A DNA stretch of 49,470 bases, from positions 1 through 49,470 of IMG/VR virus record IMGVR_UViG_3300044949_001703; one strand, written 5' to 3'. The notes under the pieces are model-generated. The model was given only the letters and a program-made list of their open reading frames with translations, was not told the DNA's origin and did no database searches. This DNA is from a virus. Shown here piece after piece: positions 21,802 to 33,276 of the stretch. Within the stretch, counting starts at the first letter, position 1; every line of letters starts with the position of its first letter. The translations under genes were made by a program, and so were the position numbers.

Positions 21802-21804
21802 AAA

Positions 21805-21893: not shown

Positions 21894-21906
21894 TCAGAAG
21901 AGAAGG

Positions 21907-22092
21907 CTAATCGTCAATTTCCTCAGTTAGATTGTGGTAATAGTTTTCCCAGTCCGAGTGGCTAACAGTTTCCTCATCATACTCATCATATTCCTCATCG
22001 CATGAGTACAAGTCATCACAGTCTCTAGCAAGGCTATCGTAATCAAAAGTATCGCTATCGTCACCGTAATAATCTTCGTTATCATATCTCAT
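21907..22092 (-). CDS. small very acidic protein
   Basis: 61 aa with about 40% Asp/Glu and many Tyr, two Cys. AAAGG precedes ATG 22092. A similar but longer acidic protein lies at 29337-29600. Possibly a DNA mimic, though nothing proves it. Confidence 0.6.
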   Translation of the reverse strand: MRYDNEDYYGDDSDTFDYDSLARDCDDLYSCDEEYDEYDEETVSHSDWENYYHNLTEEIDD

Positions 22093-22113
22093 AAGCCTTT
22101 CTCCTTTTCTACC

Positions 22114-22142
22114 ACTATACACCAAACCGGTCAAACTGTCAA
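22114..22142 (-). promoter_or_regulatory. sigma70-type promoter abutting tRNA-Lys
   Basis: TTGACA (22137-22142), 17-bp spacer, TATAGT (22114-22119). The -35 box begins at the base after the tRNA-Lys 3' end. Confidence 0.7.
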
Positions 22143-22215
22143 TGGGCCATGAAGGACTCGAACCTTCAACCTACAACTTAAAAGGATGCTGCTCTGCCAA
22201 TTGAGCTAATGGCCC
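22143..22215 (-). tRNA. tRNA-Lys (anticodon UUU)
   Basis: Acceptor GGGCCAT/ATGGCCC, D arm GCTC-AATTGGCA-GAGC, anticodon loop CTTTTAA, T arm GAAGG-TTCGAGT-CCTTC, discriminator A. Confidence 0.92.
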
Positions 22216-22225
22216 GTTTTCTACC

Positions 22226-22253
22226 ATTATACACTATGCTATCGGCTTGTCAA
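22226..22253 (-). promoter_or_regulatory. promoter of tRNA-Lys with CCGATA box
   Basis: TTGACA (22248-22253), 16-bp spacer AGCCGATAGCATAGTG, TATAAT (22226-22231). Confidence 0.8.
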
Positions 22254-22268
22254 CCCCAAAAACTTTAG

Positions 22269-22340
22269 TGACCCCACAGGGAATCGAACCCTGATTTTAT
22301 CCGTGAAAGGGATACGTACTAGCCGTTATACGATGGGGCC
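22269..22340 (-). tRNA. tRNA-Glu (anticodon UUC)
   Basis: Acceptor GGCCCCA/TGGGGTC, anticodon stem TATCC/GGATA with loop CTTTCAC, T arm CAGGG-TTCGATT-CCCTG, discriminator A. Confidence 0.92.
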
Positions 22341-22370
22341 ACACTCGCAACTCAAACGTCAGCCTCCGAA

Positions 22371-22441
22371 TTCCGAGGCTAGGATTCGAACCCAGACAAA
22401 GAGATCCAAAGTCTCCAGTGCTACCGTTACACCACCTCGGA
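22371..22441 (-). tRNA. tRNA-Gln (anticodon UUG)
   Basis: Acceptor TCCGAGG/CCTCGGA, anticodon stem GGAGA/TCTCT with loop CTTTGGA, T arm CTGGG-TTCGAAT-CCTAG, discriminator A. Confidence 0.92.
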
Positions 22442-22442
22442 G

Positions 22443-22515
22443 GGCCGATGGAGGGAATCGAACCCCCGACAGGTTGTTTACAAAACAACTACTCTACCAA
22501 CTGAGTTACATCGGC
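22443..22515 (-). tRNA. tRNA-Thr (anticodon UGU)
   Basis: Acceptor GCCGATG/CATCGGC, anticodon stem GTTGT/ACAAC with loop TTTGTAA, T arm GGGGG-TTCGATT-CCCTC. The discriminator is C, unusual for tRNA-Thr. Confidence 0.9.
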
Positions 22516-22524
22516 AATCTACAT

Positions 22525-22553
22525 ATCATAATCACGACGCCAACTCTTGTCAA
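22525..22553 (-). promoter_or_regulatory. promoter of the Thr-Gln-Glu tRNA cluster
   Basis: TTGACA (22548-22553), 17-bp spacer, TATGAT (22525-22530); no CCGATA. The TGA stop of the upstream gene (22550-22552) is inside the -35 box. Confidence 0.75.
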
Positions 22554-22903
22554 CGGCGGATCGGGTACGTTCCCGCTTGGGTCGGTTGTCCATTACCGTG
22601 TCCCGATGCTCCCTGTGACCCGTTGCCAGTTCCCAGCGTTGCTTGACCTTGATTTTCACGTTTTCGTATTTGCGGCGGCTTGTCATACCATAACCCATCG
22701 TTGTGAAGATACCACGTTTTATTATTATTAGGATCGTATGCTACTTGATACATGAAGTATTGTAGCGGTTGAGCCTGTTTTCTTTCAAGTCTAAACGTAT
22801 CCACTATCTCGGGATGAGAATCAGTATAATGCTTCATCTCTCCCCAAACTAACACTACCAATCCCAGTAGTGCTACGATTAGTTGTACCACAGTCTGTTT
22901 CAC
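22550..22903 (-). CDS. membrane-anchored protein with Gly/Gln-rich tail
   Basis: 117 aa from GTG 22903 with GGGAG upstream. Hydrophobic N-terminal anchor (residues 4-21), soluble middle with YDPNNNKTWYLHNDGLWYDK, then a low-complexity GQATLGTGNGSQGASGHGNGQ tail. Function unknown. A CCGATA box and TATAAA lie upstream (22917-22945) but the -35 is poor. Confidence 0.6.
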   Translation of the reverse strand: MKQTVVQLIVALLGLVVLVWGEMKHYTDSHPEIVDTFRLERKQAQPLQYFMYQVAYDPNNNKTWYLHNDGLWYDKPPQIRKRENQGQATLGTGNGSQGASGHGNGQPTQAGTYPIRR

Positions 22904-22961
22904 TTGTCAACTCCCTTTATACACCATTTATCGGCCATTCTCTAGCGAACCTTTAGTTTTT

Positions 22962-23041
22962 CTAAGTCCTTGCGCAGTAAGGCTTTACGTCGAGCCGGGC
23001 AGCCCGCCGCTCCCTAAGTGCTTACGCACAAAGGGTTTACG
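22962..23041 (-). repeat. R element copy 3
   Basis: Arms CTAAGTCCTTGCGC/GTAAGGCTTTACG and CTAAGTGCTTACGC/AAAGGGTTTACGG around CGGGCAGCCCG. Just downstream of the gene ending at 23050. Confidence 0.75.
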
Positions 23042-23049
23042 GCTAGTGA

Positions 23050-23286
23050 TTACATATCCTCTAGATTCCAACCAGCAGCATCTAATACCGCTGTACTTTT
23101 GAATACGCAAGTGTGACCATCAGCAGTTATATAATCCCTAAAACCACGCTCATCTATATAGAAATATTCGTCAATAGTATCATTATCATTTAATTCCCAC
23201 ACACTTTGTTGTGCAGCCTCGAAAGGATTCTTGTCGCTTGCAAAAATCATTTCTAGTGAACCACTCTTTACATAAAACTTAGCCAT
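23050..23286 (-). CDS. hypothetical protein
   Basis: 78 aa. AKFYVKSGSLEMIFASDKNPFEAAQQSVWEL, then VDERGFRD-type strand and LDAAGWNLEDM; a small alpha/beta fold, not recognised. Start overlaps the stop of the upstream zinc-ribbon ORF by 8 nt. Confidence 0.65.
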   Translation of the reverse strand: MAKFYVKSGSLEMIFASDKNPFEAAQQSVWELNDNDTIDEYFYIDERGFRDYITADGHTCVFKSTAVLDAAGWNLEDM

Positions 23287-23446
23287 TGTTAATCTCCGTG
23301 TGCATATATTTCATATCACAACCACATTCTTCACAAACGGGAGTACCATTATCTTGATACCAGTTAGGATTTATATTAACTTCATCCTCACAATCTGGAC
23401 ACTCCCATACCGCTCTAACTTTCCTATTATCAATAATATCCCACAT
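23279..23446 (-). CDS. small zinc-ribbon protein
   Basis: 55 aa. CPDCEDEVNIN ... PVCEECGCDM gives two CxxC pairs, a typical zinc ribbon. Role unknown. Confidence 0.65.
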   Translation of the reverse strand: MWDIIDNRKVRAVWECPDCEDEVNINPNWYQDNGTPVCEECGCDMKYMHTEINNG

Positions 23447-23456
23447 AATTTATTCC

Positions 23457-24161
23457 TTAGTGAGCAGGAAATAACACGTTAGCCAAACCCTTGACGCACA
23501 TATCACAACTAATACTATCCTTAGTACCAGTGCAAGTAATAACAGACCGACCACGACGAATCTCGGGACAAGTTACAAACTTTGTACCGTTCAGCACAAC
23601 CAGTTTCGGCAACGCTTTACGCCAAGCCTCGGCCTTGACTTTGCTCTTGGGTCGCTTGGGTGCAATCTTCATGTCACTATCACACCATGCAAACTTTTTG
23701 AAACCTTGGGCGAGAGCCTCACCCATATCATTATCATCATGCACACTAGCATATACGTTCATATACTTTTCCAGGCTAACAAGTCGGGAATCATAAATAT
23801 GAGTATAAAACCACATATCGGGCAGACTATCACCATCGTCAAGAATACTCTCACAAGCCCACGTTACATTAGCAACATAGTCAAGGTCAAGTTCGCCATT
23901 GAGAAACCAGTCGCCACGCTCATGCCAGCGAATAGACTTTTCTCGTCGCTTGGCTTCCAGAATCATAGCACGGATTTTATTCTTCTCAGTGATAACATTA
24001 GCGAAACCAGCAACACGAGCATTTTTATACTGATTCTCGGTGGCTTCCGCATAGCAACCATTGTTTAGATAGTCACAGTCACTCGGGCAAGTATCGCCAA
24101 CTGGACGCGAAACCACAATGCAACCCTTACCCAACTTGTCATTACCGTCAGCAGTTTTCAT
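23457..24161 (-). CDS. GP88-family phage protein
   Basis: 234 aa. N-terminal KLGKGCIVVSRPVGDTCPSDCDYLNNGCYAEATENQY with its four Cys, RWHERGDWFLNG and the C-terminal CPEIRRGRSVITCTGTKDSISCDMCVKG match the phage gene product 88 family as I recall it. Cys clusters at both ends suggest a metal or Fe-S site. Biochemical role unknown. Confidence 0.75.
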   Translation of the reverse strand: MKTADGNDKLGKGCIVVSRPVGDTCPSDCDYLNNGCYAEATENQYKNARVAGFANVITEKNKIRAMILEAKRREKSIRWHERGDWFLNGELDLDYVANVTWACESILDDGDSLPDMWFYTHIYDSRLVSLEKYMNVYASVHDDNDMGEALAQGFKKFAWCDSDMKIAPKRPKSKVKAEAWRKALPKLVVLNGTKFVTCPEIRRGRSVITCTGTKDSISCDMCVKGLANVLFPAH

Positions 24162-24183
24162 GATTGTCTCCCTGTGTCTACTG

Positions 24184-24212
24184 ATTCTACACTATAGTAT
24201 CGGCACAGTCAA
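24184..24212 (-). promoter_or_regulatory. sigma70-type promoter with CCGATA box
   Basis: TTGACT (24207-24212), 17-bp spacer GTGCCGATACTATAGTG, TAGAAT (24184-24189). Confidence 0.8.
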
Positions 24213-24237
24213 GGCAAAAACTTTCATAAAAATTACT

Positions 24238-24320
24238 CGTCATAAAGTGTTGATACACAAGGACTTACGATTCGCGGGGCCGCAGGTCTCGACGTAAGTG
24301 ATTACTGTATAAGGACTTAG
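24238..24320 (-). repeat. R element copy 4
   Basis: Arms degenerate, core CGGGGCCGCAGG, right hairpin GACGTAAGTGATTAC/GTATAAGGACTTAG. Its edge touches the 3' end of tRNA-Asp (24321). Confidence 0.6.
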
Positions 24321-24394
24321 CGAGAGTGACGGGACTCGAACCCGCAACCTCCAGCGTGACAGGCTGGCGATCTAACCAATTGATCTACACTCCC
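24321..24394 (-). tRNA. tRNA-Asp (anticodon GUC)
   Basis: Acceptor GGGAGTG/CACTCTC, anticodon stem CCAGC/GCTGG with loop CTGTCAC, T arm GCGGG-TTCGAGT-CCCGT, discriminator G. Confidence 0.92.
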
Positions 24395-24400
24395 AAAAAA

Positions 24401-24472
24401 TAGCCCCAAGAGGAATCGAACCTCTAATAATTGCTTAGAAGGCAACTGTTATATCCATTTAACTATGGGGCC
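24401..24472 (-). tRNA. tRNA-Arg (anticodon UCU)
   Basis: Acceptor GGCCCCA with 3' strand TGGGGCT, anticodon loop CTTCTAA (UCU), T arm AGAGG-TTCGATT-CCTCT, discriminator A. Reads AGA, frequent in this genome. Confidence 0.9.
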
Positions 24473-24513
24473 AAAAAACCGATAGCCGCCAGTTTGCACC
24501 AGCGGTCTATCGG
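24473..24513 (-). terminator. strong intrinsic terminator
   Basis: Minus-strand hairpin CCGATAGACCGC/GCGGCTATCGG (11 pairs with one bulge) followed by TTTTTT. Ends the transcript of the gene at 24536-24790 directly before tRNA-Arg. Confidence 0.85.
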
Positions 24514-24535
24514 AATTATAACATATAGATTATAT

Positions 24536-24790
24536 TCAGGCAACTGCTTCGGCTTCGGCTTCCACCTTACCATTGTGAGCATCACCGGCCTGCTTCGCAG
24601 TCACACCAGTAACACGGGCACGCCACACCTTGTAACCCTGCTCACTAAAAGCCTTGACCTCTCCAGCCTTGACATTCGCGTGAACATCGCTAGGCAGAGC
24701 ATCGGTCAGACAAGACGAGATCGAATCGACAACAGCATCACGATCCAGTTCATCAGCAACCACATCAACCACAAACGAAAACTTCTTCAT
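24536..24790 (-). CDS. hypothetical protein
   Basis: 84 aa. KKFSFVVDVVADELDRDAVVDSISSCLTDALPSDVHANVKAGEVKAF suggests a small alpha/beta domain; acidic Ala/Glu tail. ATG 24790 with AAAGGG upstream. GC-rich codons, perhaps highly expressed. Confidence 0.65.
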   Translation of the reverse strand: MKKFSFVVDVVADELDRDAVVDSISSCLTDALPSDVHANVKAGEVKAFSEQGYKVWRARVTGVTAKQAGDAHNGKVEAEAEAVA

Positions 24791-24835
24791 ATCAGACCCT
24801 TTCAAGTTAGTGTTAGTCTCAACCATCATGCTATC

Positions 24836-24863
24836 ATTCTACACTCTGTATCGTCATTGTCAA
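24836..24863 (-). promoter_or_regulatory. sigma70-type promoter with ACGATA box
   Basis: TTGACA (24858-24863), 16-bp spacer ATGACGATACAGAGTG, TAGAAT (24836-24841). Confidence 0.8.
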
Positions 24864-24893
24864 CACCACTACATGAATTATTCTTTGCTTTGT

Positions 24894-24974
24894 GTAAGTG
24901 CTTGTGGCATAAGGAGTTACGTTTTGCCGGCCCGCCAGCCAAGTCCCAAGTTCTTTGGTAGCAAGGCTTTAGGT
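24894..24974 (-). repeat. R element copy 5
   Basis: Arms GTAAGTGCTTGTGGC/ATAAGGAGTTACG and CCCAAGTTCTTTGG/GCAAGGCTTTAGG around CCGGCCCGCC. Abuts the stop of the bL12-like gene. Confidence 0.65.
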
Positions 24975-25345
24975 CAAGAGAGATATCCCTCACAACCCAA
25001 ATCGGCCAGATCACGCAGCAGATTCTCAGCCGCCTCGGGAGTCTTGAGAGTGATGCTCTGCTTGATACCGTTTTTGGCAGGAACAAACCTATCACCCTTC
25101 CAGCCACCCACCAACACATCCGTCCAATCCTTGCTCTCTTTCAAACCCCATCCCGTGTGAAGTCTGATAGCCTTGATACAGTGAATCCGGTTATCAAGAG
25201 TCATACCGTTAGTGATGGTAACGGTGCAACGCTGGTTCACACCCAACGCAACTTCAAGAGCGTTCACAATTTTTTCGTAAATATCAGCATTGGATCGCAG
25301 AGCAAGATCAAGAGCCTCACGAACACTCAGTTGCAGATTGATCAT
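24974..25345 (-). CDS. ribosomal protein bL12 C-terminal-domain-like protein
   Basis: 123 aa. Residues 53-75 (RIHCIKAIRLHTGWGLKESKDW) and 95-122 (KQSITLKTPEAAENLLRDLADLGCEGY) align by eye with the bL12 C-terminal domain (KINVIKAVRAATGLGLKEAKDLV ... AEALKKALEEAGAEV), the part that recruits translation factors. An unrelated helical N-terminal domain replaces the ribosome-binding half. May interact with translational GTPases; inference. ATG 25345 follows AAAGGG. Confidence 0.65.
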   Translation of the reverse strand: MINLQLSVREALDLALRSNADIYEKIVNALEVALGVNQRCTVTITNGMTLDNRIHCIKAIRLHTGWGLKESKDWTDVLVGGWKGDRFVPAKNGIKQSITLKTPEAAENLLRDLADLGCEGYLS

Positions 25346-25347
25346 AT

Positions 25348-25755
25348 TCAAACCCTTTCTTCCAAAATATAAACTTGTTTGCTGTTAGTCAGTAAAGTAG
25401 CGTACTCGCTATCATCCCAAACGAATTCGTTGCAGTCACTTTCTCGTCGCCAGTGCGGATCACGAATAGGATTATAGTATAACTTTTCTAGGTTGTCAAC
25501 CCCTATTTCGTTATTAATCATAACCTCGTCACACTTTACCCATCCACTCACATCATGCACACCAGCCTCGTATACCTGTTTAGCCTTATTTATCTTATTC
25601 ACCAATCGGCACTTAATCATTTCCAACTGATAATATGCCGGATCATAATAATAAACATCTAACTTCTCACTGCCACACATGGCCTTTACTTGCCAGTGCA
25701 TATAGTTAGAACCAGCACCAAGATGAAATCGTATTTCGTAGTGTGTGCGTTTCAT
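25348..25755 (-). CDS. hypothetical protein
   Basis: 135 aa. Begins KRTHYEIRFHLGAGSNYMHWQVK and contains Cys/Asp pairs and many aromatic residues; not recognised. Upstream partner of the bL12-like gene. Confidence 0.65.
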   Translation of the reverse strand: MKRTHYEIRFHLGAGSNYMHWQVKAMCGSEKLDVYYYDPAYYQLEMIKCRLVNKINKAKQVYEAGVHDVSGWVKCDEVMINNEIGVDNLEKLYYNPIRDPHWRRESDCNEFVWDDSEYATLLTNSKQVYILEERV

Positions 25756-25761
25756 ATTCGT

Positions 25762-25790
25762 ACTATACCTTATCGACCAATGGTTGTCAA
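25762..25790 (-). promoter_or_regulatory. sigma70-type promoter with TCGATA box
   Basis: TTGACA (25785-25790), 17-bp spacer ACCATTGGTCGATAAGG, TATAGT (25762-25767). Confidence 0.75.
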
Positions 25791-25792
25791 TA

Positions 25793-25992
25793 CTTTAAAA
25801 ATACCCACACTGGCCTACGTCCAGTAGCGTTTTAGACTTCCACCGCCTATAGGGTATATTTTCGCTGACTACAGCCACTCTAGCCAAATCCGAAGGATTA
25901 GGAGAAACAAGGTTGGCTTCCGCCATACTCGACCAACATTTCAGATAGCCTCTTTTGATATCATTGTGGCTATCCCCAAACCTTGCTTCCTA
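25793..25992 (-). ncRNA. candidate small RNA ending in an S element
   Basis: A promoter (25993-26020) fires into about 190 nt with no good gene before the next promoter. The transcript would contain a hairpin-rich part and an S element (25861-25911). A 43-codon ATG frame (start MAEANLVSPNPSDLARVA) crosses the S element but lacks a Shine-Dalgarno; it is noted as an alternative. Confidence 0.35.
25861..25911 (-). repeat. S element (copy 5)
   Basis: Minus strand: hairpin CCTAATCC-TTC-GGATTTGG, then GGCTGTAGTCAGCGAAAA. Confidence 0.7.
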
Positions 25993-26020
25993 AGCATATC
26001 AGTATTATCGGGATAGTCAA
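25993..26020 (-). promoter_or_regulatory. sigma70-type promoter with CCGATA box
   Basis: TTGACT (26015-26020), 16-bp spacer ATCCCGATAATACTGA, TATGCT (25993-25998). Confidence 0.6.
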
Positions 26021-26047
26021 GAGGATTCTTTAAAAAAAATTACTCAT

Positions 26048-26129
26048 CGTAAGTTGTTTAGCAGTCAGGGTTTACGACTCGGCGGGCTGCCCCGCTTGCC
26101 CTAAGTCCTTGTGGGATCAGGAGTTACCG
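26048..26129 (-). repeat. R element copy 6
   Basis: Arms CGTAAGTTGTTTAGC/CAGGGTTTACG and CTAAGTCCTTGTGGG/TCAGGAGTTACCG around GCGGGCTGCCCCGC. The stop codon of the next gene (26117-26119) is in the right hairpin. Confidence 0.7.
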
Positions 26130-26290
26130 AGCACTAATTGTACATACTTATCAACAAGTTCGCTTACAGCAATCTCATGAGTAGAGATTAACTCTTTGGT
26201 CTTACTCACGTTATGCTTATTAACAGCACTCATACGAGAGTTAAAAAAGTTAATAATATAAACCATAGCCTTTTCACGATCTTCATTCAT
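26117..26290 (-). CDS. small hypothetical protein
   Basis: 57 aa, helical (REKAMVYIINFFNSRMSAV...STHEIAVSELVDKYVQLVL), not recognised. ATGA-type overlap with the upstream gene; 3' end inside an R element. Confidence 0.6.
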   Translation of the reverse strand: MNEDREKAMVYIINFFNSRMSAVNKHNVSKTKELISTHEIAVSELVDKYVQLVLGNS

Positions 26291-26538
26291 GATGGATAAT
26301 CCTTTGGATAAGTAGATGGTGGTAGTTCTGGCCTTTGCATTCCCTCAACACACGGCGTCCACCAAGGAACATCCATGCGGTCAACAACCCCAAATGCTTC
26401 CGAACACAAAACCAAATGTGGGCTTACAGGATCATTTGGCTCATAATGATAAACTCCACGCCACACACCAATATGTTCGCCATAATAATAGATTTCCTGC
26501 CCATCAGTTGGCTGTTGCTCAAAAAAACTAATCCACAT
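26287..26538 (-). CDS. DUF551-like small protein
   Basis: 83 aa. MWISFFEQQPTDGQEIYYYGEHIGVWRGVY resembles the phage family that begins W-SV-ERLPEDG. C-terminal Pro-rich tail. Start overlaps the upstream gene. Confidence 0.5.
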   Translation of the reverse strand: MWISFFEQQPTDGQEIYYYGEHIGVWRGVYHYEPNDPVSPHLVLCSEAFGVVDRMDVPWWTPCVEGMQRPELPPSTYPKDYPS

Positions 26539-26716
26539 TATTATATCTCTTATATAGAAGGAATAGTCCAACCACCAAAATTAAACCATACAATACACTT
26601 GGCTCTGGCACAATACTAATGCCGTCTGGTGATATTAACACAAACGGTGGTAATTGCAATAGGGGTGGCTCATATTTAAACCATGGTTCCCAATCTATAT
26701 CGGGCAATTTATTCAT
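26528..26716 (-). CDS. small protein with PEP-CTERM-like C-terminal anchor
   Basis: 62 aa. Ends with VPEPS (36-40), a 15-residue hydrophobic stretch (VLYGLILVVGLFLLY) and a basic KRY cluster, the three parts of a PEP-CTERM sorting signal. No N-terminal signal peptide is visible from ATG 26716, which is atypical; an upstream start (26752) adds FLCQ but still no classic signal. Cells with exosortase cleave and anchor such proteins. Confidence 0.55.
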   Translation of the reverse strand: MNKLPDIDWEPWFKYEPPLLQLPPFVLISPDGISIVPEPSVLYGLILVVGLFLLYKRYNNVD

Positions 26717-26723
26717 TAAATCT

Positions 26724-26930
26724 CTACCAACTTTCTGGCATAGGAATATCATTAAGATTCATATAATAGATAACATCATATTTCTGAGGATAAGTCCAAG
26801 GATTAGAATTGTCCGACCAATAAGAACTGGTTAAACTTTGTTGCCAATACAACAATAGTGGATAACTACAACCCTTAACAGCACACAAATACGGCCCATC
26901 AGTTACAGGATTACCATAATTCCATTTCAT
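26724..26930 (-). CDS. DUF551-like small protein
   Basis: 68 aa. GNPVTDGPYLCAVKG at the start and YDVIYYMNLNDIPMPESW at the end fit the small phage family with a closing MPLP/MPE motif. ATG 26930 overlaps the previous gene by one base. Confidence 0.5.
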   Translation of the reverse strand: MKWNYGNPVTDGPYLCAVKGCSYPLLLYWQQSLTSSYWSDNSNPWTYPQKYDVIYYMNLNDIPMPESW

Positions 26931-27154
26931 TATTTTACCCTTGTAATAATCAAACATTCCGTACCACTATCACCATCACTATATTTCACACTCTCATGAG
27001 GCCCATAATACCAAGCGTCATTCTTGGAAAAATTAAACACAACCTCTTCAGTTTTCAGACCGGTATCATTATACCCACCCTCATAACCAAGAGTAAGAAC
27101 CCGCATATCGGCTGGATAATTCTTCAACTGCTCAATCAGTTCGTTAACGGTCAT
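26930..27154 (-). CDS. conserved small protein (MTVNELIEQLKNYP type)
   Basis: 74 aa. TVNELIEQLKNYPADMRVLTLGYEGGYNDTGLKTEEVVF is a recurrent small phage and bacterial family of unknown function. ATGA overlap with the next ORF. Confidence 0.65.
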   Translation of the reverse strand: MTVNELIEQLKNYPADMRVLTLGYEGGYNDTGLKTEEVVFNFSKNDAWYYGPHESVKYSDGDSGTECLIITRVK

Positions 27155-27267
27155 TTCTTCTCCTTACATTCATTCTCTCTAACTCGATTATCACCAGAGT
27201 CAGATCGTGCAGGACAACGCCTGTCATGAAAATCGTTAATCCATCGGCCACATTTCTTGCACTTCAT
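27151..27267 (-). CDS. very small zinc-binding protein
   Basis: 38 aa. MKCKKCGRWIND..RRCPARSD with four Cys in total. Directly downstream of a promoter and coupled to the next gene (ATGA). Confidence 0.5.
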   Translation of the reverse strand: MKCKKCGRWINDFHDRRCPARSDSGDNRVRENECKEKK

Positions 27268-27274
27268 ATGTTCC

Positions 27275-27302
27275 ATTATACCATTCTTTATCGTCAAGTC
27301 AA
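27275..27302 (-). promoter_or_regulatory. sigma70-type promoter with ACGATA box
   Basis: TTGACT (27297-27302), 16-bp spacer TGACGATAAAGAATGG, TATAAT (27275-27280). Confidence 0.75.
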
Positions 27303-27306
27303 TAAG

Positions 27307-27830
27307 AAAAAACCAGCGGAATCTTTTACGCCCCGATTCCTATAACCCACACCTATTACTTTCAAAGTGTGGAAACCGCCCACGGAAATCCTTCCTAGGC
27401 ATAGTTCATGACTCATGCCGTCTGGCTCTTGGAACGGTTACTGGTTGTATTTTTATGGGTGTCACCTATTTCTACTCCTGCTTTCGCAGTTTCGGAGGCC
27501 ACATGGAAGGATCGTCACCGGTAACTCCTCTTCACTCTGTTGTGCTTTGCCTCGTCATACGGATAACCGTCACCCATAAAGTATTGGTCGTGGTGAGGAC
27601 GCGATCCCCCATAGACTGGCACTACTATACAGCGTATAAGCCCGCTGTCAACCCCGGCGATTGCCTCGCTGAACGAGAGGTTTATCGTAATGGCTTATCC
27701 CAATCTAGTCCGGCTTGACCCACGAAAGTTTGTATTGTAGGACCGATTGTAGCAGACGTTTCCTAGGACATCAACTACCGTTTTTACCGGCTGCTCGGCC
27801 CGACACAACCAACAAGCGTTTGCTTGTTCT
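27307..27830 (-). ncRNA. large structured non-coding RNA
   Basis: About 520 nt, GC-rich against an AT-rich background, with no plausible ORF on the transcribed strand. A consensus promoter (27837-27864) starts it and a terminator hairpin GGAATC/GATTCC (27318-27340) plus TTTTTT (27307-27312) ends it. Many hairpins are visible on the minus strand: AACAAGC-AAAC-GCTTGTT, CTCG/CGAG, ACGG-TTAT-CCGT, CTGC-GAAA-GCAG (GNRA loop), GGCAT/ATGCC, CCACAC/GTGTGG. Size, structure and tRNA-rich phage context recall GOLLD and ROOL RNAs, but I could not match a consensus. Confidence 0.8.
27624..27651 (-). promoter_or_regulatory. possible internal promoter inside the large ncRNA
   Basis: TTGACA (27646-27651), 16-bp spacer, TATAGT (27624-27629). 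Could start a shorter 310-nt RNA, or be fortuitous. Confidence 0.35.
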
Positions 27831-27836
27831 TTCATC

Positions 27837-27864
27837 ATTATACACTCTGTTATCGGCTTGTCAA
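27837..27864 (-). promoter_or_regulatory. promoter of the large ncRNA, with CCGATA box
   Basis: TTGACA (27859-27864), 16-bp spacer AGCCGATAACAGAGTG, TATAAT (27837-27842). The TGA stop of the upstream gene (27861-27863) is inside the -35 box. Confidence 0.85.
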
Positions 27865-28346
27865 GAGGCTTCTACCTCATCATCAGCAAAAAAGTTATCC
27901 ATATCAAACTCATTCCACAAAGCAACAGGAATCATATCCTTGCTTTTATATTCAATATAGTTATCCGCACCATTGTCCCAAATACCACAAAAAGCCATAC
28001 CCGGCTCAAAATAACTTGCCTTTACATAGTATCCCAACTCTACGAGTTTTTCGTACAAACCAACAGGAGGAGCCCAAGCACTATCAAACGTGCTACTAAC
28101 CTGATTTCCAACCCTAGTAGCCCTCAAGCCATGGTACTCTTCCCGCTCTGTACCAATATCGGCACCAATATCCCACTTGGTTCCCCAGTTATTCACACAA
28201 AAATCATACCAACCCTCACCAATATCTTCGGGCATAGGCAAGAACTCATTACAAGTTTTACCAGCATTGTAGGCTTGCTCAAAACGATCCACCATAGACG
28301 GATCAGAATGTTCAACGGTCAGATTATTCAAGCACCAGTTAGGCAT
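27861..28346 (-). CDS. Api92-like ferredoxin-fold phage protein
   Basis: 161 aa. MPNWCLNNLTVEH...F and the later WYDFCVNNWGTKWDIGA, FDSAWAPPVGLYEKL match the Api92-like/DUF1281 family typical of phages and mobile elements. Function unknown. Promoter immediately upstream. Confidence 0.8.
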   Translation of the reverse strand: MPNWCLNNLTVEHSDPSMVDRFEQAYNAGKTCNEFLPMPEDIGEGWYDFCVNNWGTKWDIGADIGTEREEYHGLRATRVGNQVSSTFDSAWAPPVGLYEKLVELGYYVKASYFEPGMAFCGIWDNGADNYIEYKSKDMIPVALWNEFDMDNFFADDEVEAS

Positions 28347-28365
28347 TGTGTTCTCCTTTGTGTCG

Positions 28366-28393
28366 ATTGTACCTTATTCTTATCGGCTGTCAA
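28366..28393 (-). promoter_or_regulatory. sigma70-type promoter with CCGATA box
   Basis: TTGACA (28388-28393), 16-bp spacer GCCGATAAGAATAAGG, TACAAT (28366-28371). The stop of the upstream ORF (28390-28392) lies in the -35. Confidence 0.8.
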
Positions 28394-28545
28394 CCCCTAA
28401 TTCTTTCAATCCAAATATAATTTCCAAACTTCTCTTGTGCTTTCTTCATAGCATCATATTCACTCATTGCGACAACATATCCAGCAAACCTATTACTAGA
28501 AAACACACGCCAGGTATAACCAGAATAGCAGTAAGCATTAGTCAT
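28390..28545 (-). CDS. small hypothetical protein
   Basis: 51 aa. Aromatic: YCYSGYTWRVFSSNRFAGYVVAMSEYDAMKKAQEKFGNYIWIERI, a beta-alpha-beta pattern. Own promoter upstream. Confidence 0.65.
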   Translation of the reverse strand: MTNAYCYSGYTWRVFSSNRFAGYVVAMSEYDAMKKAQEKFGNYIWIERIRG

Positions 28546-28563
28546 AACTCCTCCGTTTGCTTG

Positions 28564-28591
28564 ATTCTATAGTGTAGAATCGGCATGTCAA
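28564..28591 (-). promoter_or_regulatory. sigma70-type promoter with CCGATT box
   Basis: TTGACA (28586-28591), 16-bp spacer TGCCGATTCTACACTA, TAGAAT (28564-28569). Confidence 0.8.
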
Positions 28592-28619
28592 GCCATAATC
28601 TTGAAAAAATATTTGTGGT

Positions 28620-28699
28620 CGTAAACCTTTATGTGGTAAGCACTTACGTCAAATCGGGCCGCCGGCCTCGCCCTAAGTCCTTGGCTGGCAAAGACTTAG
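28620..28699 (-). repeat. R element copy 7
   Basis: Arms CGTAAACCTTTATG/GTAAGCACTTACG and CTAAGTCCTTGGC/CAAAGACTTAG around CGGGCCGCCGGCC. Downstream of the gene ending at 28714. Confidence 0.7.
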
Positions 28700-28713
28700 A
28701 GCGACTGCCACGA

Positions 28714-29121
28714 TCAGCAGAGAAACGATGCCAATCCCGTCTTAAACGCTACCCCACCAAGGAGGGGGCGACGCACATTCGTGGTACGTTCAGCGTAAAA
28801 GTTGCGAATCTTACCATCGGGAGTTTGTGCAGTTACAAGGTGAGTAGTACGCTGAAAGTTATCATCATACCTACGATAGCGACTTTGGCTATTCAGTCGG
28901 CGGATACTTTCATCCGACAACCGATGAACTTCCAGCACCCTTGCCATGTAACGCTCAGGCTCACCATGCAATGGCTGATGGTATACAAAATTGTAAACAC
29001 CACCAACCCTAGCATTCGTCAGACTATCATGCACACCAGCATAAACGTGGAAAGCGGCAAAAGCCAGAATACCACAAGTCACAACCGCAAAAACACTACC
29101 AACAATAAACGCATCGTTCAT
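28714..29121 (-). CDS. membrane-anchored protein
   Basis: 135 aa. N-terminal helix (5-28) then a soluble domain GGVYNFVYHQPLHGEPERYMARVLEVHRL...RYDDNFQRTTHLVTAQTPDGKIRNFYAERTTNVRRP. The beta-rich soluble part, with RV-EVHRL and TPDGKIRNFY, looks like a small SH3-like or WYL-like fold. Function unknown. Confidence 0.65.
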   Translation of the reverse strand: MNDAFIVGSVFAVVTCGILAFAAFHVYAGVHDSLTNARVGGVYNFVYHQPLHGEPERYMARVLEVHRLSDESIRRLNSQSRYRRYDDNFQRTTHLVTAQTPDGKIRNFYAERTTNVRRPLLGGVAFKTGLASFLC

Positions 29122-29156
29122 AAAAACCTTTCTGTTAGTTAACCCTTAATACGCTT

Positions 29157-29185
29157 AGTCTACACTACTAATCGACACTTGTCAA
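29157..29185 (-). promoter_or_regulatory. sigma70-type promoter with TCGATT box
   Basis: TTGACA (29180-29185), 17-bp spacer AGTGTCGATTAGTAGTG, TAGACT (29157-29162). A TGA stop (29182-29184) is inside the -35. Confidence 0.75.
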
Positions 29186-29337
29186 GATACGACTTCAGGA
29201 ATAATTTCCGTTTCCCACCACAATTGCTCATATTCAGACCGAAGCCGACTGACTTCAGAATACGGCTGACTAATATCCTCCACAGCATCCAAATAAGCCT
29301 TATAAGCCGCTTCTAATCGCTGACTATAACTTTCCAT
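29182..29337 (-). CDS. small coiled-coil protein
   Basis: 51 aa, acidic helix (MESYSQRLEAAYKAYLDAVEDI...EVSRLRSEYEQLWWETE). TAATG junction with the acidic protein gene. Confidence 0.6.
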   Translation of the reverse strand: MESYSQRLEAAYKAYLDAVEDISQPYSEVSRLRSEYEQLWWETEIIPEVVS

Positions 29338-29600
29338 TAGTAATCCTCCCCGTAGTCGCCAAAATAACCGTAATCCTCATCGGTTCCCCAGCCTGCTGAC
29401 TCCATCGCGGAATCATGGTCGCCATCCATACTATCATCATACGAATCATCATCGGCCTCATCGTTATAATCTTCGTAGTCCATGCTCTCACCATAGAAAT
29501 CGTTGTAATCATCGTAGTTAGACGCATCAACATCATCGGCGTAGTTCATATCGTCCTCGTAGGCGTTATCGGGATCGAACAAGGGATCGGGGTGACTCAT
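29337..29600 (-). CDS. very acidic repetitive protein
   Basis: 87 aa, roughly half Asp/Glu, with Tyr/Asn/Gly in irregular D-Y repeats and almost no Lys or Arg. Resembles the shorter acidic protein at 21907-22092. DNA-mimic or metal-binding roles are possible but unproven. Confidence 0.65.
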   Translation of the reverse strand: MSHPDPLFDPDNAYEDDMNYADDVDASNYDDYNDFYGESMDYEDYNDEADDDSYDDSMDGDHDSAMESAGWGTDEDYGYFGDYGEDY

Positions 29601-29612
29601 GACTTTTCCTTT

Positions 29613-29789
29613 TTAGTGGGTGTACCAGAAGATACCGTTATCGTCAACCATCGGCTCAGGATACATTTCATCGAAAGTACCCGTAACGTCAGCAAACTCC
29701 AGAGGGTGAACGTCGTTCTCGTCAATCGGCTCGACCATACCATCGTCCCGCATGCAGGCCAGAATATCGTTGATTTCATCAAGGCTCAT
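29613..29789 (-). CDS. small acidic protein
   Basis: 58 aa: MSLDEINDILACMRDDGMVEPIDENDVHPLEFADVTGTFDEMYPEPMVDDNGIFWYTH. Helical start, acidic throughout, not recognised. First gene after a promoter. Confidence 0.65.
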   Translation of the reverse strand: MSLDEINDILACMRDDGMVEPIDENDVHPLEFADVTGTFDEMYPEPMVDDNGIFWYTH

Positions 29790-29818
29790 CTTCGTTTCTC
29801 CGTTGGGGTGATACGCTT

Positions 29819-29846
29819 AGGATACCATAATTATCGGCCAACGCAA
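29819..29846 (-). promoter_or_regulatory. promoter with CCGATA box, weak -35
   Basis: TTGCGT (29841-29846), 16-bp spacer TGGCCGATAATTATGG, TATCCT (29819-29824). An AT tract with TTTGGCATGGAA lies upstream. Confidence 0.6.
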
Positions 29847-29930
29847 GCAAAATCTTTGGATTTTTTGAAAAATAATTCCATGCCAAACCACAAAAATTTT
29901 TGCGGCACGCGGTTTGCGTCAAGAGTCGTT

Positions 29931-30010
29931 GTAAGTCGTTATCCAGTAAGGAGTTACGACGAGCCGGGCAGCCCCGCTTTCCCTAAGTACTTACGGGGTA
30001 AGGCTTTACG
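29931..30010 (-). repeat. R element copy 8
   Basis: Clear copy: GTAAGTCGTTATC/GTAAGGAGTTACG, core CCGGGCAGCCCCG, CTAAGTACTTACG/GTAAGGCTTTACG. The TGA of the next ORF is the TCA just after it. Confidence 0.8.
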
Positions 30011-30094
30011 TCAACTATTCACAATCCATGCAGTTATACATCCGATCACAAATGTACAAAAGAACACTACATAGTCAAACATCGTCGCGTTCAT
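30011..30094 (-). CDS. single-helix micro membrane protein
   Basis: 27 aa: MNATMFDYVVFFCTFVIGCITAWIVNS, nearly all transmembrane. Overlaps the upstream ORF by 20 nt; ends at an R element. Confidence 0.45.
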   Translation of the reverse strand: MNATMFDYVVFFCTFVIGCITAWIVNS

Positions 30095-30194
30095 TTTCCG
30101 ATTCCTTGGGAAAAACTAAATCACTCAAGGCATAACACGCTGTTACACCCACGATAATACCAAAAACTAAACTATAAGGCTCGAACAAATCCAT
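30075..30194 (-). CDS. small membrane protein
   Basis: 39 aa. Hydrophobic helix (8-25) then an acidic tail. No firm function. Confidence 0.5.
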   Translation of the reverse strand: MDLFEPYSLVFGIIVGVTACYALSDLVFPKESENERDDV

Positions 30195-30211
30195 CCGTGG
30201 ACTCCTTTTTA

Positions 30212-30400
30212 TTATTCAGCCCGAACAAAAACTTCCTTATTACCCTTAATATTCTCCCGGCAAACAGTAACAAGCCAATTACGGCCACTACCATCCTCGG
30301 GACGAATACCATTAATCAGCCCCTTAAACTCACCCACAGTCACAACCTTACGCTTCGCCATCATCTCACAGAGCCACGAATAAGAATAAACCTTAACCAT
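30212..30400 (-). CDS. small hypothetical protein
   Basis: 62 aa, basic. KVYSYSWLCEMMAKRKVVTVGEFKGLINGIRPEDGSGRNWLVTVC could be a compact nucleic-acid-binding fold. GGAG before the ATG. Confidence 0.6.
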   Translation of the reverse strand: MVKVYSYSWLCEMMAKRKVVTVGEFKGLINGIRPEDGSGRNWLVTVCRENIKGNKEVFVRAE

Positions 30401-30427
30401 TTTTTAAAATCTCCTTAAAAGTGTTAA

Positions 30428-30739
30428 TCAACCCTGAACAACCATAGCATCCATAAACGGATATTCTTTACCGTTAATCTTAACATACCAAGTAAAATCC
30501 CGCTGGTAAACTCTCACCGGACTATACTGATTAATTCTATCCTTCGTGGTCACAGTCTGCCAACCCCCACTATTAAGGGTATACGTACCATTACTATTAA
30601 TCTTTACCACATAGGTATTATGCAACTTAATTGCCACAGTATTATCATGTAGAATTTCAGCGTAGGTATTATTGCCAATCTTTCGACTATCCTTGTTACG
30701 CTTGCCACGAACCATACTAACCGCTTCGGCGTGAGTCAT
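30428..30739 (-). CDS. conserved phage protein of unknown function
   Basis: 103 aa. RKIGNNTYAEILHDNTVAIKLHNTYVVKINSNGTYTLNSGGWQTVTTKDRINQY is a common beta-rich phage family (GNNTY...SGGW-T-TTK-RIN). Role unknown. Confidence 0.75.
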   Translation of the reverse strand: MTHAEAVSMVRGKRNKDSRKIGNNTYAEILHDNTVAIKLHNTYVVKINSNGTYTLNSGGWQTVTTKDRINQYSPVRVYQRDFTWYVKINGKEYPFMDAMVVQG

Positions 30740-30763
30740 TTTCTTCTCCCTAGTGTTATCGGT

Positions 30764-30791
30764 ATTCTACAGGCCAAACTTTAAAAGTCAA
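30764..30791 (-). promoter_or_regulatory. sigma70-type promoter, CCGATA downstream of -10
   Basis: TTGACT (30786-30791), 16-bp spacer, TAGAAT (30764-30769). CCGATA (30757-30762) lies downstream of the -10. Confidence 0.7.
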
Positions 30792-30796
30792 ACGCT

Positions 30797-30846
30797 TTTC
30801 GCTGACTACAGCCACACCAGCCAAACCCGAAGGGTTAGGTGGGACA
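30797..30846 (-). repeat. S element (copy 6, best copy)
   Basis: Minus strand, directly after the stop codon of the next gene: hairpin CCTAACCC-TTC-GGGTTTGG, then GGCTGTAGTCAGCGAAAA with a GCTG-TAGT-CAGC hairpin. Confidence 0.75.
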
Positions 30847-30847
30847 A

Positions 30848-31045
30848 TCAATCCCAACCGTTAGCCTTGTATGATTCGCTGAACACTTGAACAGTGTGGA
30901 TTACTTCTGACCTACGTTCCTCAAAATGCTTCCACACTTTCCAAGCGTTATCCCGGTACTGTAGATAGGTGGCGGTCCAAAGATTTTCAACATCGTTTCG
31001 CGTTTTGCAATCGTTCAGGCTTTCCAGAATCAACATCTCGTTCAT
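30848..31045 (-). CDS. hypothetical protein
   Basis: 65 aa, helical (LNDCKTRNDVENLWTATYLQYRDNAWKVWKHFEERRSEV), not recognised. Very strong GGAGG 5 nt before the ATG; an S element follows the stop at once. Confidence 0.65.
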   Translation of the reverse strand: MNEMLILESLNDCKTRNDVENLWTATYLQYRDNAWKVWKHFEERRSEVIHTVQVFSESYKANGWD

Positions 31046-31072
31046 CGTTTCCTCCGTTGTGATTATATCGGC

Positions 31073-31100
31073 ATTATACAGACTGATCTTTAGGTTGCAA
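31073..31100 (-). promoter_or_regulatory. sigma70-type promoter, CCGATA downstream of -10
   Basis: TTGCAA (31095-31100), 16-bp spacer, TATAAT (31073-31078), then GCCGATA (31066-31072). Confidence 0.7.
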
Positions 31101-31152
31101 GCGAAATTTTCAAATATAATTTCATGCCAAACGAAAAAATATTTTTTGTGCT

Positions 31153-31231
31153 CTAAGTCTTTATGGCATAAGGAGTTACATCAAATTTGCCAGCCCCGTT
31201 GATCGTAAGTCCTTACGCAGCAAGGATTTAC
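31153..31231 (-). repeat. R element copy 9
   Basis: CTAAGTCTTTATGGC/ATAAGGAGTTACA, core GCCAGCCCCG, CGTAAGTCCTTACGC/GCAAGGATTTACAACG. Confidence 0.75.
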
Positions 31232-31257
31232 AACGAGTGATTTATAGTGTACGGATG

Positions 31258-31581
31258 TCACCCCTCCGAAAAGGGGGAGACTTCCTCACCACAAGCAAGG
31301 ATAGCAGCATATTGTGAGGCAAGAGCGTCAACACGTTCACGCGAACCGGGTTTGCCAACCTTCACGATCATACGATCCTCACCCCCCACCATGCGGGGGT
31401 CAACTTTTTCCTTCTTCTTCTTTCCGATATTTCGTAACGCCTTACGATTGAACTTCAAAACCTTCTCACTATGGATGGGGCCATATACCCCCTCAGCGAG
31501 GGAGGGTTGGTGAACGATTGCGATACCCTCAAAATGAGCGAGGATACCACGACGAAATTCATTCAGGATTTCAGATTTCAT
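31258..31581 (-). CDS. hypothetical protein
   Basis: 107 aa. Basic middle (KFNRKALRNIGKKKKEKVDPRMVGGEDRM), helical start (KSEILNEFRRGILAHFEGIAIVH). Not recognised. The coding sequence holds three C-rich/G-rich hairpins, the last containing the stop codon. Confidence 0.65.
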   Translation of the reverse strand: MKSEILNEFRRGILAHFEGIAIVHQPSLAEGVYGPIHSEKVLKFNRKALRNIGKKKKEKVDPRMVGGEDRMIVKVGKPGSRERVDALASQYAAILACGEEVSPFSEG

Positions 31582-31658
31582 TTGTTTATTCCTTGTGATT
31601 GATTGAACGTATGGATTGTAGCAAACTCAAAGTACCCGTGTCAAGGCCAGTCTATAGG

Positions 31659-31889
31659 TTAGATGGCCTCTCCATCGTCAAAGCCCGGAATATAGTCGGG
31701 AAGATCATTGTATTCTTCCATCGTCATGGCATTATCTTCCAACGCCTTTACCATAGCCTCATCTTCCACCACACCACACCATTCCTTGCAATCCATGCAA
31801 ATCCCAATTCGATCACTACCCTCACCAGTCTCAAAACCACAAGCAGCACCACAGCAGTCAGAAATCAGATCGTAATTCAGATTTTCCAT
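31659..31889 (-). CDS. SDCC/zinc-ribbon small protein (family copy 1)
   Basis: 76 aa. LISDCCGAACGFE...CMDCKEWCG and a C-terminal DYIPGFDDGEA. Two shorter paralogues lie at 32568-32723 and 33585-33740. Likely zinc-binding. AAAGGATA leader before the ATG. Confidence 0.7.
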   Translation of the reverse strand: MENLNYDLISDCCGAACGFETGEGSDRIGICMDCKEWCGVVEDEAMVKALEDNAMTMEEYNDLPDYIPGFDDGEAI

Positions 31890-31933
31890 TTTTATATCCT
31901 TTTTGGTTTCTTTCTCTTTCTCTTTATATCGAC

Positions 31934-31961
31934 ATTATACAGACCAAAATTGAGTTTTCAA
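31934..31961 (-). promoter_or_regulatory. sigma70-type promoter, TCGATA downstream of -10
   Basis: TTGAAA (31956-31961), 16-bp spacer, TATAAT (31934-31939), then GTCGATA. Confidence 0.65.
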
Positions 31962-32103
31962 GCAAAATCCTGAAATTTTTATGTCAAGAGATTTTGACAA
32001 AACTTTTGGTAATTTTCGTCTGGTTCGGCACGCGGTTTGCTATGGCAAATATCATGCCAAACGAAAAATATTTTACGGCATGGTATGTGCGTCATGAGTG
32101 ATT

Positions 32104-32183
32104 GTAAGTCGTTACACAGCAAGGGTTTGCGTCAAACGGGGCAGCCCCGCGACTCCTAAGTCCTTACGCCGTAAGGGTTTACG
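32104..32183 (-). repeat. R element copy 10 (best copy)
   Basis: GTAAGTCGTTACAC/GCAAGGGTTTGCG, core CGGGGCAGCCCCG, CTAAGTCCTTACGCC/GTAAGGGTTTACG. Arms are imperfect inverted repeats and the core is a perfect GC palindrome with one central base. Confidence 0.85.
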
Positions 32184-32222
32184 TCAAGTCGTTGTACAGT
32201 AGTGTACAGGCGTACACCCCCA

Positions 32223-32369
32223 CTACAGTGGGGATGCACAAGCGTACACTGAGCCGAATGGCACGTTATGCTGATTAGCATATACTGACCGAGCATCCAT
32301 CCAATCCTTAGCAAGTACCATGCCAAGATAGAAATCATTATCTGCACTATAGATATAGTATGTTTTCAT
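32223..32369 (-). CDS. small duplicated protein (copy 1)
   Basis: 48 aa: MKTYYIYSADNDFYLGMVLAKDWMDARSVYANQHNVPFGSVYACASPL. Near-identical to the gene at 33947-34093 (6 differences). Unknown function. The stop codon is inside a CCCCAC/GTGGGG hairpin; a purine-rich leader precedes the ATG. Confidence 0.7.
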   Translation of the reverse strand: MKTYYIYSADNDFYLGMVLAKDWMDARSVYANQHNVPFGSVYACASPL

Positions 32370-32542
32370 TTGTTTCTCTCTTTCTCTCTAATAACCCTAG
32401 TGGTCATGCCATTTGGATGATGGGTGATTATAAAGTATTCTTCCTCTTTCTTTCGGAACTCCTCAACTTTAAACGGTGGACGATTTTTCCAATATTCTTG
32501 AGCCTTGATTCTGGACTCATGCTTATGATAATCGAACTTCAT
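32366..32542 (-). CDS. small basic/charged protein
   Basis: 58 aa: highly charged helix HESRIKAQEYWKNRPPFKVEEFRKKEEEYFIITHHPNGMTTRVIREKERNK. ATGA coupling with the next gene. The leader is GA-rich. Confidence 0.6.
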   Translation of the reverse strand: MKFDYHKHESRIKAQEYWKNRPPFKVEEFRKKEEEYFIITHHPNGMTTRVIREKERNK

Positions 32543-32567
32543 TTTTTTCTCTCTTTCTCTTTCTTTC

Positions 32568-32723
32568 TTAGAACTCACCATCATCGTAACCGGGAATATA
32601 GTCGGATTCCATCGAATCGTCAACCACAATTTCACAATGCTCACCACAACATGAGCAGATCATATGATCCACATTACTCTCAACATTACAACAATCCGAA
32701 ACGTAAAAAACCATCTTTTCCAT
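32568..32723 (-). CDS. SDCC/zinc-ribbon small protein (family copy 2)
   Basis: 51 aa: VFYVSDCCNVES...MICSCCGEHCEIVV...SDYIPGYDDGE. Paralogue of 31659-31889 and 33585-33740. GA-rich leader upstream of ATG 32723. Confidence 0.7.
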   Translation of the reverse strand: MEKMVFYVSDCCNVESNVDHMICSCCGEHCEIVVDDSMESDYIPGYDDGEF

Positions 32724-32748
32724 CTTTCTAACTCTCTTTCTTTCTAAC

Positions 32749-32776
32749 ATTATACCAAATATTTTTTAATTTTCAA
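32749..32776 (-). promoter_or_regulatory. sigma70-type promoter
   Basis: TTGAAA (32771-32776), 16-bp A/T spacer, TATAAT (32749-32754). The -35 directly follows a GGGGG hairpin arm and contains the TGA of the upstream gene (32773-32775). Confidence 0.65.
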
Positions 32777-32922
32777 CCCCCATTATTGGGGGACTCAGCC
32801 TTTTTCTTTTCGGCTTGTTCTTTTCTCCATTGTTGAACCCACGCAACGTAACGATCAACGTCACCATCGCGGTTATCCTTAGAGTAATCGTATCCATCGT
32901 CAGAACCGTAAAACTTTTTCAT
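32773..32922 (-). CDS. small hypothetical protein
   Basis: 49 aa: MKKFYGSDDGYDYSKDNRDGDVDRYVAWVQQWRKEQAEKKKAESPNNGG. The last codons are made by a CCCCC-AATAAT-GGGGG hairpin. Charged and soluble, unknown role. Confidence 0.6.
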   Translation of the reverse strand: MKKFYGSDDGYDYSKDNRDGDVDRYVAWVQQWRKEQAEKKKAESPNNGG

Positions 32923-33159
32923 TTTCAACTCTCTCTTTCTTATGCCTATATATAGTGCAGGTTCTGTGCCAAAGTCGGAAATATTTTTTGATGATTTTCC
33001 TCGGGAAAAACGCTATGATATTTTTTGTGCCTAGAGATTGAGCGTAGCATTTTGCAACAGTGTGTAGCATTTTGCGTTAGTGATTTTGGCCGTGTCTCAC
33101 ACATAGTGTAGCATTTTGCAACACCCCCCATTAGAACGTATGCCTAATAAATAGGCCAT
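32923..33159 (-). promoter_or_regulatory. intergenic control region with three direct repeats
   Basis: No gene. It holds a promoter-like TTGGCA-16 bp-TATAGG (32945-32972) whose TGGCAC...TGCA also resembles a sigma54 site, and three direct repeats GTAGCATTTTGC(AACA) at 33044-33059, 33064-33075 and 33108-33123. The repeats could be operator or iteron sites. Confidence 0.45.
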
Positions 33160-33240
33160 CGTAAGTGCTTATGCCGTAAGGGTTTACGTCAAATCGGCCT
33201 GCCCTTTTAGCCCTAAGTGCTTATCCCATAAGGGTTTATG
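33160..33240 (-). repeat. R element copy 11
   Basis: CGTAAGTGCTTATGCC/GTAAGGGTTTACG, core CGGCCTGCCC, CTAAGTGCTTATCCC/ATAAGGGTTTATGG. Confidence 0.75.
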
Positions 33241-33276
33241 GCTAGCGACCCTTACTGTACAAATGTACCACACCCC

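Follow-up and report, generated by a model that had tools for sequence, protein, structure and literature searches.

Several known RNA systems offer points of comparison for the locus described here. GOLLD is a structured RNA found near tRNAs, and its variable linker sometimes holds tRNAs itself (PMC12286853). ROOL occurs in phages and prophages near tRNA islands, contains pseudoknots, measures ~500-600 nt in total and has intertwined 5' and 3' regions. Phage tRNA operons use one promoter for several successive RNAs that are stable and folded, and the T4 tRNA cluster also includes the stable RNAs C and D, which are of unknown function. ToxI and pseudo-ToxI RNAs consist of consecutive folded units, which are pseudoknots, and of single-stranded joints between them; the ToxI units are short repeats that are alike. 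Phages escape type III toxins by means of pseudo-ToxI RNA units, as phage TE does against ToxN, and in one case such units were gained by recombination (PMC5086642).

The DNA analysed here (the window) comprises 49,470 nt of the IMG/VR virus record IMGVR_UViG_3300044949_001703. Its minus strand, which is also the strand of the surrounding genes, carries a non-coding RNA of ~520 nt bounded by a promoter (27864-27837) and a T6 run (27312-27307). The initial annotation had proposed a single structured RNA at this place. A non-coding RNA unit is indeed what we find, but sequence comparison resolves it into a chain of domains on AAUACAA linkers, A-B-C-D, each of which is closed independently, and not into one ornate RNA: the four modules fold separately and are added, dropped, duplicated or swapped in relatives. 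The features of the unit are the following:

27837..27864, minus strand: sigma-70 promoter TTGACA-16-TATAAT of the array (12/12 consensus; sequence and position kept in relatives)
27740..27830, minus strand: module A, an optional 5' module of about 95 nt (nhmmer, 19 distinct homologues in 36 loci; z -2.4), its start placed from the promoter position
27730..27736, minus strand: linker AATACAA between A and B (sequence)
27588..27725, minus strand: module B, pseudoknotted core domain closed by P1 (84 distinct homologues; covariation)
27636..27698, minus strand: pseudoknot helix P4 of B, 27698-27693 (AUAAGC) with 27641-27636 (GCUUAU) (covariation)
27452..27580, minus strand: module C in the exchangeable B-D slot, closed by UUUAUGGGUG/CACCCAUAAA and holding a GAAA-capped hairpin (occurs alone elsewhere)
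27445..27451, minus strand: linker AATACAA before D (sequence)
27313..27444, minus strand: module D, multi-branched core, two of whose arms are exchangeable (76 distinct homologues)
27307..27312, minus strand: T6 run abutting the D closing helix, a probable facultative terminator (sequence; 22/83 homologues T-rich)
27275..27302, minus strand: promoter TTGACT-16-TATAAT, distinct from that of the array and belonging to the next gene (26930-27154), which marks the end of the RNA unit

The promoter agrees with the consensus at all 12 positions on the minus strand, as had been claimed, and in relatives an identical promoter with a fixed short leader stands directly 5' of the first module. The same promoter type precedes the tRNA-Lys gene (22253-22225). 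An internal TTGACA-TATAGT at 27651 was rejected as a chance match, since it lies inside the conserved helices of B and is lost in many homologues. At the 3' end, the hairpin GGAATC..GATTCC is followed by GCTGG and the T6 run. The hairpin and T6 run read initially as a terminator are thus present, and termination at T6 is plausible in the window; however, a strict terminator scan gave no call for the 3' end of the RNA, and a terminator is not a family trait, as homologous D ends have a T-rich tail in only 22 of 83 cases.

The absence of an ORF on the RNA strand was confirmed. Within 27309-27836 the minus strand holds no ORF of >=50 aa (the only ORFs there are antisense, on the plus strand), and no frame stays open across the homologues, the best reaching 14/76 for B and 22/74 for D. 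Protein coding on either strand was therefore rejected, and no conserved protein coding was found among the B and D homologues. The composition also differs from that of the neighbouring DNA, as first noticed: GC content is 0.46-0.52 over most of the region (200-nt windows), against about 0.36-0.43 beside it.

Taken over its full length, the RNA has no striking folding energy (z = -1.54). The structural claim is founded on covariation, which was found among the relatives of both B and D. In B, the closing helix P1 (27725-27720 with 27593-27588) is followed by a short P2 and a long P3 that encloses P5, P6 and the pseudoknot P4, and P7 precedes the closure of P1. Counted on 76 distinct sequences, 96.6% of the cells of B are paired, with 21/37 pairs changed on both sides, a level reached by 0/500 shuffles, and sliding the partner by 1-3 columns lowered pairing to 34-40%. 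For the P4 pseudoknot, 99.8% of cells are paired, and one of its pairs is C-G in 46 sequences and G-C in 30. In module D, the closing helix CCAGU/GCUGG (27444-27440 with 27317-27313) encloses another helix, from which one variable arm extends, then the other variable arm and finally a hairpin on the 3' side; here 99.6% of cells are paired and 7/17 pairs have changed on both sides, again with 0/500 shuffles as high. The closing helix of C also shows compensatory changes (AUGGGUG/CACCCAU versus AUGGGCG/CGCCCAU). The GNRA-capped CTGC-GAAA-GCAG that had drawn attention to the region sits in this module (about 27489-27478), and it is kept with changed pairs in relatives of C (AUGC-GAUA-GCAU; CCACU-GAUG-AGUGG).

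Compensatory changes in B, accompanied by G-U pairs on one strand, also bear on whether the locus acts as RNA at all. A DNA-level element, such as an origin or a packaging or recombination site, would be in keeping with a non-coding, mosaic sequence that has many inverted repeats and one copy per genome, but it is made highly improbable by this one-sided pattern of pairing, by the promoter with its fixed leader and by the tRNAs that lie within the same units. Judged on the sequences, the locus is very probably a non-coding transcription unit with one sigma-70-type promoter, independent modules and unstructured AAUACAA linkers. The single sequence makes a moderate case for this, and the comparison with relatives makes it a strong one.

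The relatives were collected by several routes. A neighbouring protein served as the first bait and led to 80 IMG/VR loci, about 35 of them with a matching RNA, while two pattern scans derived from the RNA, and hence free of protein bias, returned 66 stretches (D loop) and 55 stretches (B end). Iterated nhmmer gave 84 distinct B modules (123 loci), 76 D (119 loci), 19 A (36 loci) and 6 C (9 loci), and 96 distinct related arrays were recovered from IMG/VR. A tie to the neighbouring 161-aa gene was rejected as a bait effect, this gene being nearby in only 9/64 loci found by RNA pattern, and no other neighbour gene was tied to the array.

The carriers include members of the terminase clade of the window phage, whose terminase has 24% identity to those of cultured phages, and their records reach 244 kb. 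Carrying phage records of 75-244 kb have one array each, and a tandem B was seen once. The carrier phages are large and, according to our reading of the sample types and of a MAG from Lake Lanier, live in freshwater. A search of 50,697 phage records revealed no array, and cultured phages gave no match to the window RNA, to a B-D pair or to twelve further modules. Cellular homologues were rejected: the 19 pattern hits in 85,000 genomes were all due to chance except L196, a MAG contig that shares 99.9% identity with a phage contig over 3.9 kb and, by this resemblance, is a mis-binned phage contig. The window phage has a tmRNA (934-1287, minus strand; tag GETQLALAA) and nine tRNAs (Ile, Ser, Asn, Lys, Glu, Gln, Thr, Asp and Arg).

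In most arrays B (or E) and D form the usual backbone in a fixed order. Some arrays have module E in the place of B; since the B covariance model (R1) finds it at about 1e-11, E is a divergent B. Each of B and D is also found without the other, and the smallest B+D core measures about 230 nt (L085). In 28 arrays the slot between B and D has no module in it, the two neighbours sharing one linker. All other arrays place one or two modules there, drawn from a set of at least 11 that are unrelated to each other, measure 56-150 nt and are each closed by a helix; tRNA-like modules are among them (L009, L141, L127), and in one case the slot holds an ORF (L023). Some arrays have further modules 5' of B or 3' of D, tRNA-Gly stands 5 nt before B in L147 and tRNA-Gln 7 nt after D in L146, and L021 has six modules in one string. 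Module C is also found without B or D: in L205, which lies on the L037 contig, it has its own promoter and U-run end, and in L203 it follows a tRNA-like gene. Overall, the modules fall into at least 15 families, each closed by a terminal helix, and are 57-160 nt long.

The linkers mark the boundaries of these modules. Arrays contain AATACAA at a density of 3.93 per kb, against 0.117 per kb elsewhere, a 33-fold enrichment. Cuts at the linkers of 55 arrays cost a mean of 2.2 kcal/mol, as opposed to 15.2 for random cuts, in a calculation that covers nested secondary structure only; within this scope, the array is unlike ROOL with its intertwined 5' and 3' regions. The linkers are mostly unpaired (0.74), but other A-rich heptamers are nearly as much so (0.71), so that this point is neutral. 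AAUACAA corresponds to no known processing site.

Other elements were observed in the window and in related phages. An intergenic repeat of ~87 nt, perhaps terminator-, REP- or MITE-like, is dispersed in 10 copies over 21256-33949 of the window (e.g., 22963-23049, 29932-30018 and 33863-33949) and is composed of two imperfect palindromes (CGTAAGTCCTTACGCAGTAAGGGTTTACG type) around a GC-rich GCCGGGCAGCCCG stretch; similar elements flank arrays in related phages. A 52-nt intergenic element (5'-TTGTTTCTCCTAATCCTTCGGATTTGGCTAGAGTGGCTGTAGTCAGCGAAAA) with two hairpins has five minus-strand copies (18214, 18336, 19896, 25859 and 30796), and a relative of it lies directly behind the stand-alone C of L205. 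A Pistol ribozyme (Rfam RF02679, 57.6 bits) was found in L045 at 11038-11100 on the plus strand. A tRNA-like RNA of about 98 nt, scoring 30-33 bits as tRNA, is present in L147, L045, L132 and L135; its acceptor, D and T arms are normal, and an unusual elaborated region takes the place of the anticodon arm. The window also contains overlapping open frames of about 340 aa each on opposite strands (20185-21210, plus; 20203-21225, minus) and, at 24974-25351 on the minus strand, a gene whose 125-aa product weakly matches the C-terminal domain of ribosomal protein L7/L12 (24.1 bits, cut-off 25.9) and is possibly a phage-encoded bL12-like protein.

Similarity among B modules is uncorrelated with that of the adjacent D modules (Mantel r 0.064, p 0.125; 59 loci with both), whereas the two sides of B, which served as a control, correlate with r 0.81. 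Among 18 pairs with B >=95% identical, D falls below 70% in 12. Within D, the second arm (Y-arm) shows no correlation with the 3' core (r -0.04), and that of the first arm is moderate (0.38). The lack of correlation between B and D and between the arm and core of D implies exchange at the level of modules and again inside D. Taken jointly with the anatomy described above, it is very likely that modules and arms have been exchanged by recombination between related phages. Assembly chimaeras are an unlikely source of this mosaicism, because typical assembly words are longer than the joints, and because the arrays recur independently, identical ones coming from four metagenomes (L002-L005) and the L014 array being present also in an independent MAG (L196); single cases may nevertheless be chimaeric.

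The initial annotation had left the choice between a divergent member of GOLLD or ROOL and a new class. Our analysis supports the latter. The Rfam models of GOLLD and ROOL gave no match in the region (E<=10), in 17 loci (E<=1), in 5 (E<=3) or in 12 (gathering cut-off), and no other Rfam family matches the region, the only low-E match, bxd_6 on the opposite strand (E 0.065), having been rejected as an insect family far below its cut-off. Membership in either family was therefore not borne out in the region or in the relatives scanned. The array shares with GOLLD its phage origin, structured character and proximity to tRNAs, as well as a variable region able to hold tRNAs (PMC12286853); the B-slot-D layout with tRNA-like modules is analogous, though the 3' module D differs from the 3' domain of GOLLD. 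It differs from GOLLD in its short, separately closed modules on AAUACAA, in the free exchange of B and D, in a much smaller core and in the lack of a covariance-model match. With ROOL it has in common the occurrence in phages and prophages near tRNA islands, the pseudoknots and the total length, but again there is no covariance-model match.

The near-constant pairing of B (or E) with D suggests that these two work together and not as independent decoys. It favours a two-domain core, which makes a homo-oligomeric scaffold like that of GOLLD or ROOL the main rival explanation; B and D would form a conserved shell or an assembly, and the middle module would be cargo or an interior domain. The fixed order of B/E and D in most arrays, a variable slot with tRNA-like modules that parallels the GOLLD linker with its tRNAs (PMC12286853) and the phage origin beside tRNAs all speak for such a scaffold. 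We nevertheless consider it unlikely, as neither the window nor the relatives scanned match GOLLD or ROOL in sequence or structure, the B+D core is much smaller (down to about 230 nt in L085), the evolution of B is independent of that of D, and B without D, D without B and C alone all occur.

The proximity to tRNA genes noted at the outset is real, and several relatives carry tRNAs or tRNA-like modules inside the array. As in phage tRNA operons, one promoter precedes several stable folded RNAs, and the locus could be a processed stable-RNA operon whose unusual tRNAs or tRNA mimics serve phage translation and not defence. Apart from the real tRNAs, some modules of the relatives score as tRNA, several of them weakly (28.7-37.8 bits). 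The order of helices in B resembles a cloverleaf, a T-loop-like UGCGAAU/UGCGAUU occurs in a subset of B, CCA follows within <=2 nt of P1 in 43/76 B, and the phage also encodes a tmRNA and nine tRNAs. However, neither the CCA nor the T-loop is universal, the window modules A, B, C and D do not score as tRNA or as any other Rfam family, and among the loci scanned A, B, C, D and the other non-tRNA-like modules match no Rfam family. Most modules (M1-M7, C and D) lack tRNA features and belong to no described family, and swapping extends even inside modules. Similarity to rRNA, prompted by short look-alikes of 23S helix 89, was rejected because nhmmer and blastn gave nothing significant; modules A, B and D had no significant nhmmer match to the 16S, 23S and 5S of an E. 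coli rrn operon. Overall, we find a tRNA-type operon rather unlikely.

The preferred reading is that of an array of RNA modules acting as decoys. Like ToxI and pseudo-ToxI, it has folded units, pseudoknots among them, in a row with single-stranded joints, but its modules measure 57-160 nt, in contrast to the short ToxI repeats, and are mutually unlike. The decoy reading is suggested by the exchange of many unlike, compact, self-closed RNAs between constant linkers and behind a constant promoter, by the tRNA-like nature of some modules and by the precedent of phages that overcome an RNA-regulated toxin by gaining antitoxin-like RNA units (PMC5086642). The array would be transcribed by the host polymerase into a polycistronic RNA resembling that of a tRNA operon, and its modules would be released by cleavage of the linkers or would act while joined. 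Each module may then bind a host RNA-binding factor in trans as a decoy or mimic, with a defence nuclease or toxin and a tRNA-processing or translation factor as candidate targets. A changing repertoire of modules would mirror changing host targets, much as in the gain of pseudo-ToxI by phage TE. No toxin gene (ToxN/CptN/TenpN) was recognised beside the array, and nothing local points to defence, since the neighbours have no PADLOC match and no Pfam match above cut-off and none is tied to the array.

As a best explanation overall, the modular array combined with decoy action is put forward tentatively, as possible rather than probable. Taken separately, it is somewhat doubtful that the modules act in trans and serve as decoys for RNA-binding factors of the host, and doubtful that the locus is an RNA-cassette system in which closed domains, each directed against a particular host factor, and arms within them are gained and swapped by recombination at linkers and junctions that are short and conserved. 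Arrays running into a small ORF would also fit a role as a 5' leader or RNA stabiliser, whose folded modules protect or regulate downstream messages: in L031, L012, L036 and L151 the last linker runs into a ribosome-binding site and an ORF. Such a role is quite unlikely, as a T-run and then a new promoter come next in the window and in other arrays, the downstream genes vary, and a generic stabiliser would need neither a covarying pseudoknot nor tRNAs within the array.

In the open literature searched, no description of such an RNA was found, and we know of no RNA class made of swappable closed domains. We would therefore regard the RNA family as categorically new, with a predicted biochemical role, although a reader may prefer to see in it a variant of the large phage RNAs. 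At one phage locus and within one architecture, it brings together at least 15 undescribed families of structured RNA domains, and it makes domain shuffling in non-coding RNA directly visible. If B and D form a scaffold, the array would be a natural chassis for the insertion of RNA cargo; if the modules are decoys, it would be an equivalent, made of RNA, of the anti-defence islands of phages, and one from which specific inhibitors of RNA-binding proteins of bacteria would be obtainable.
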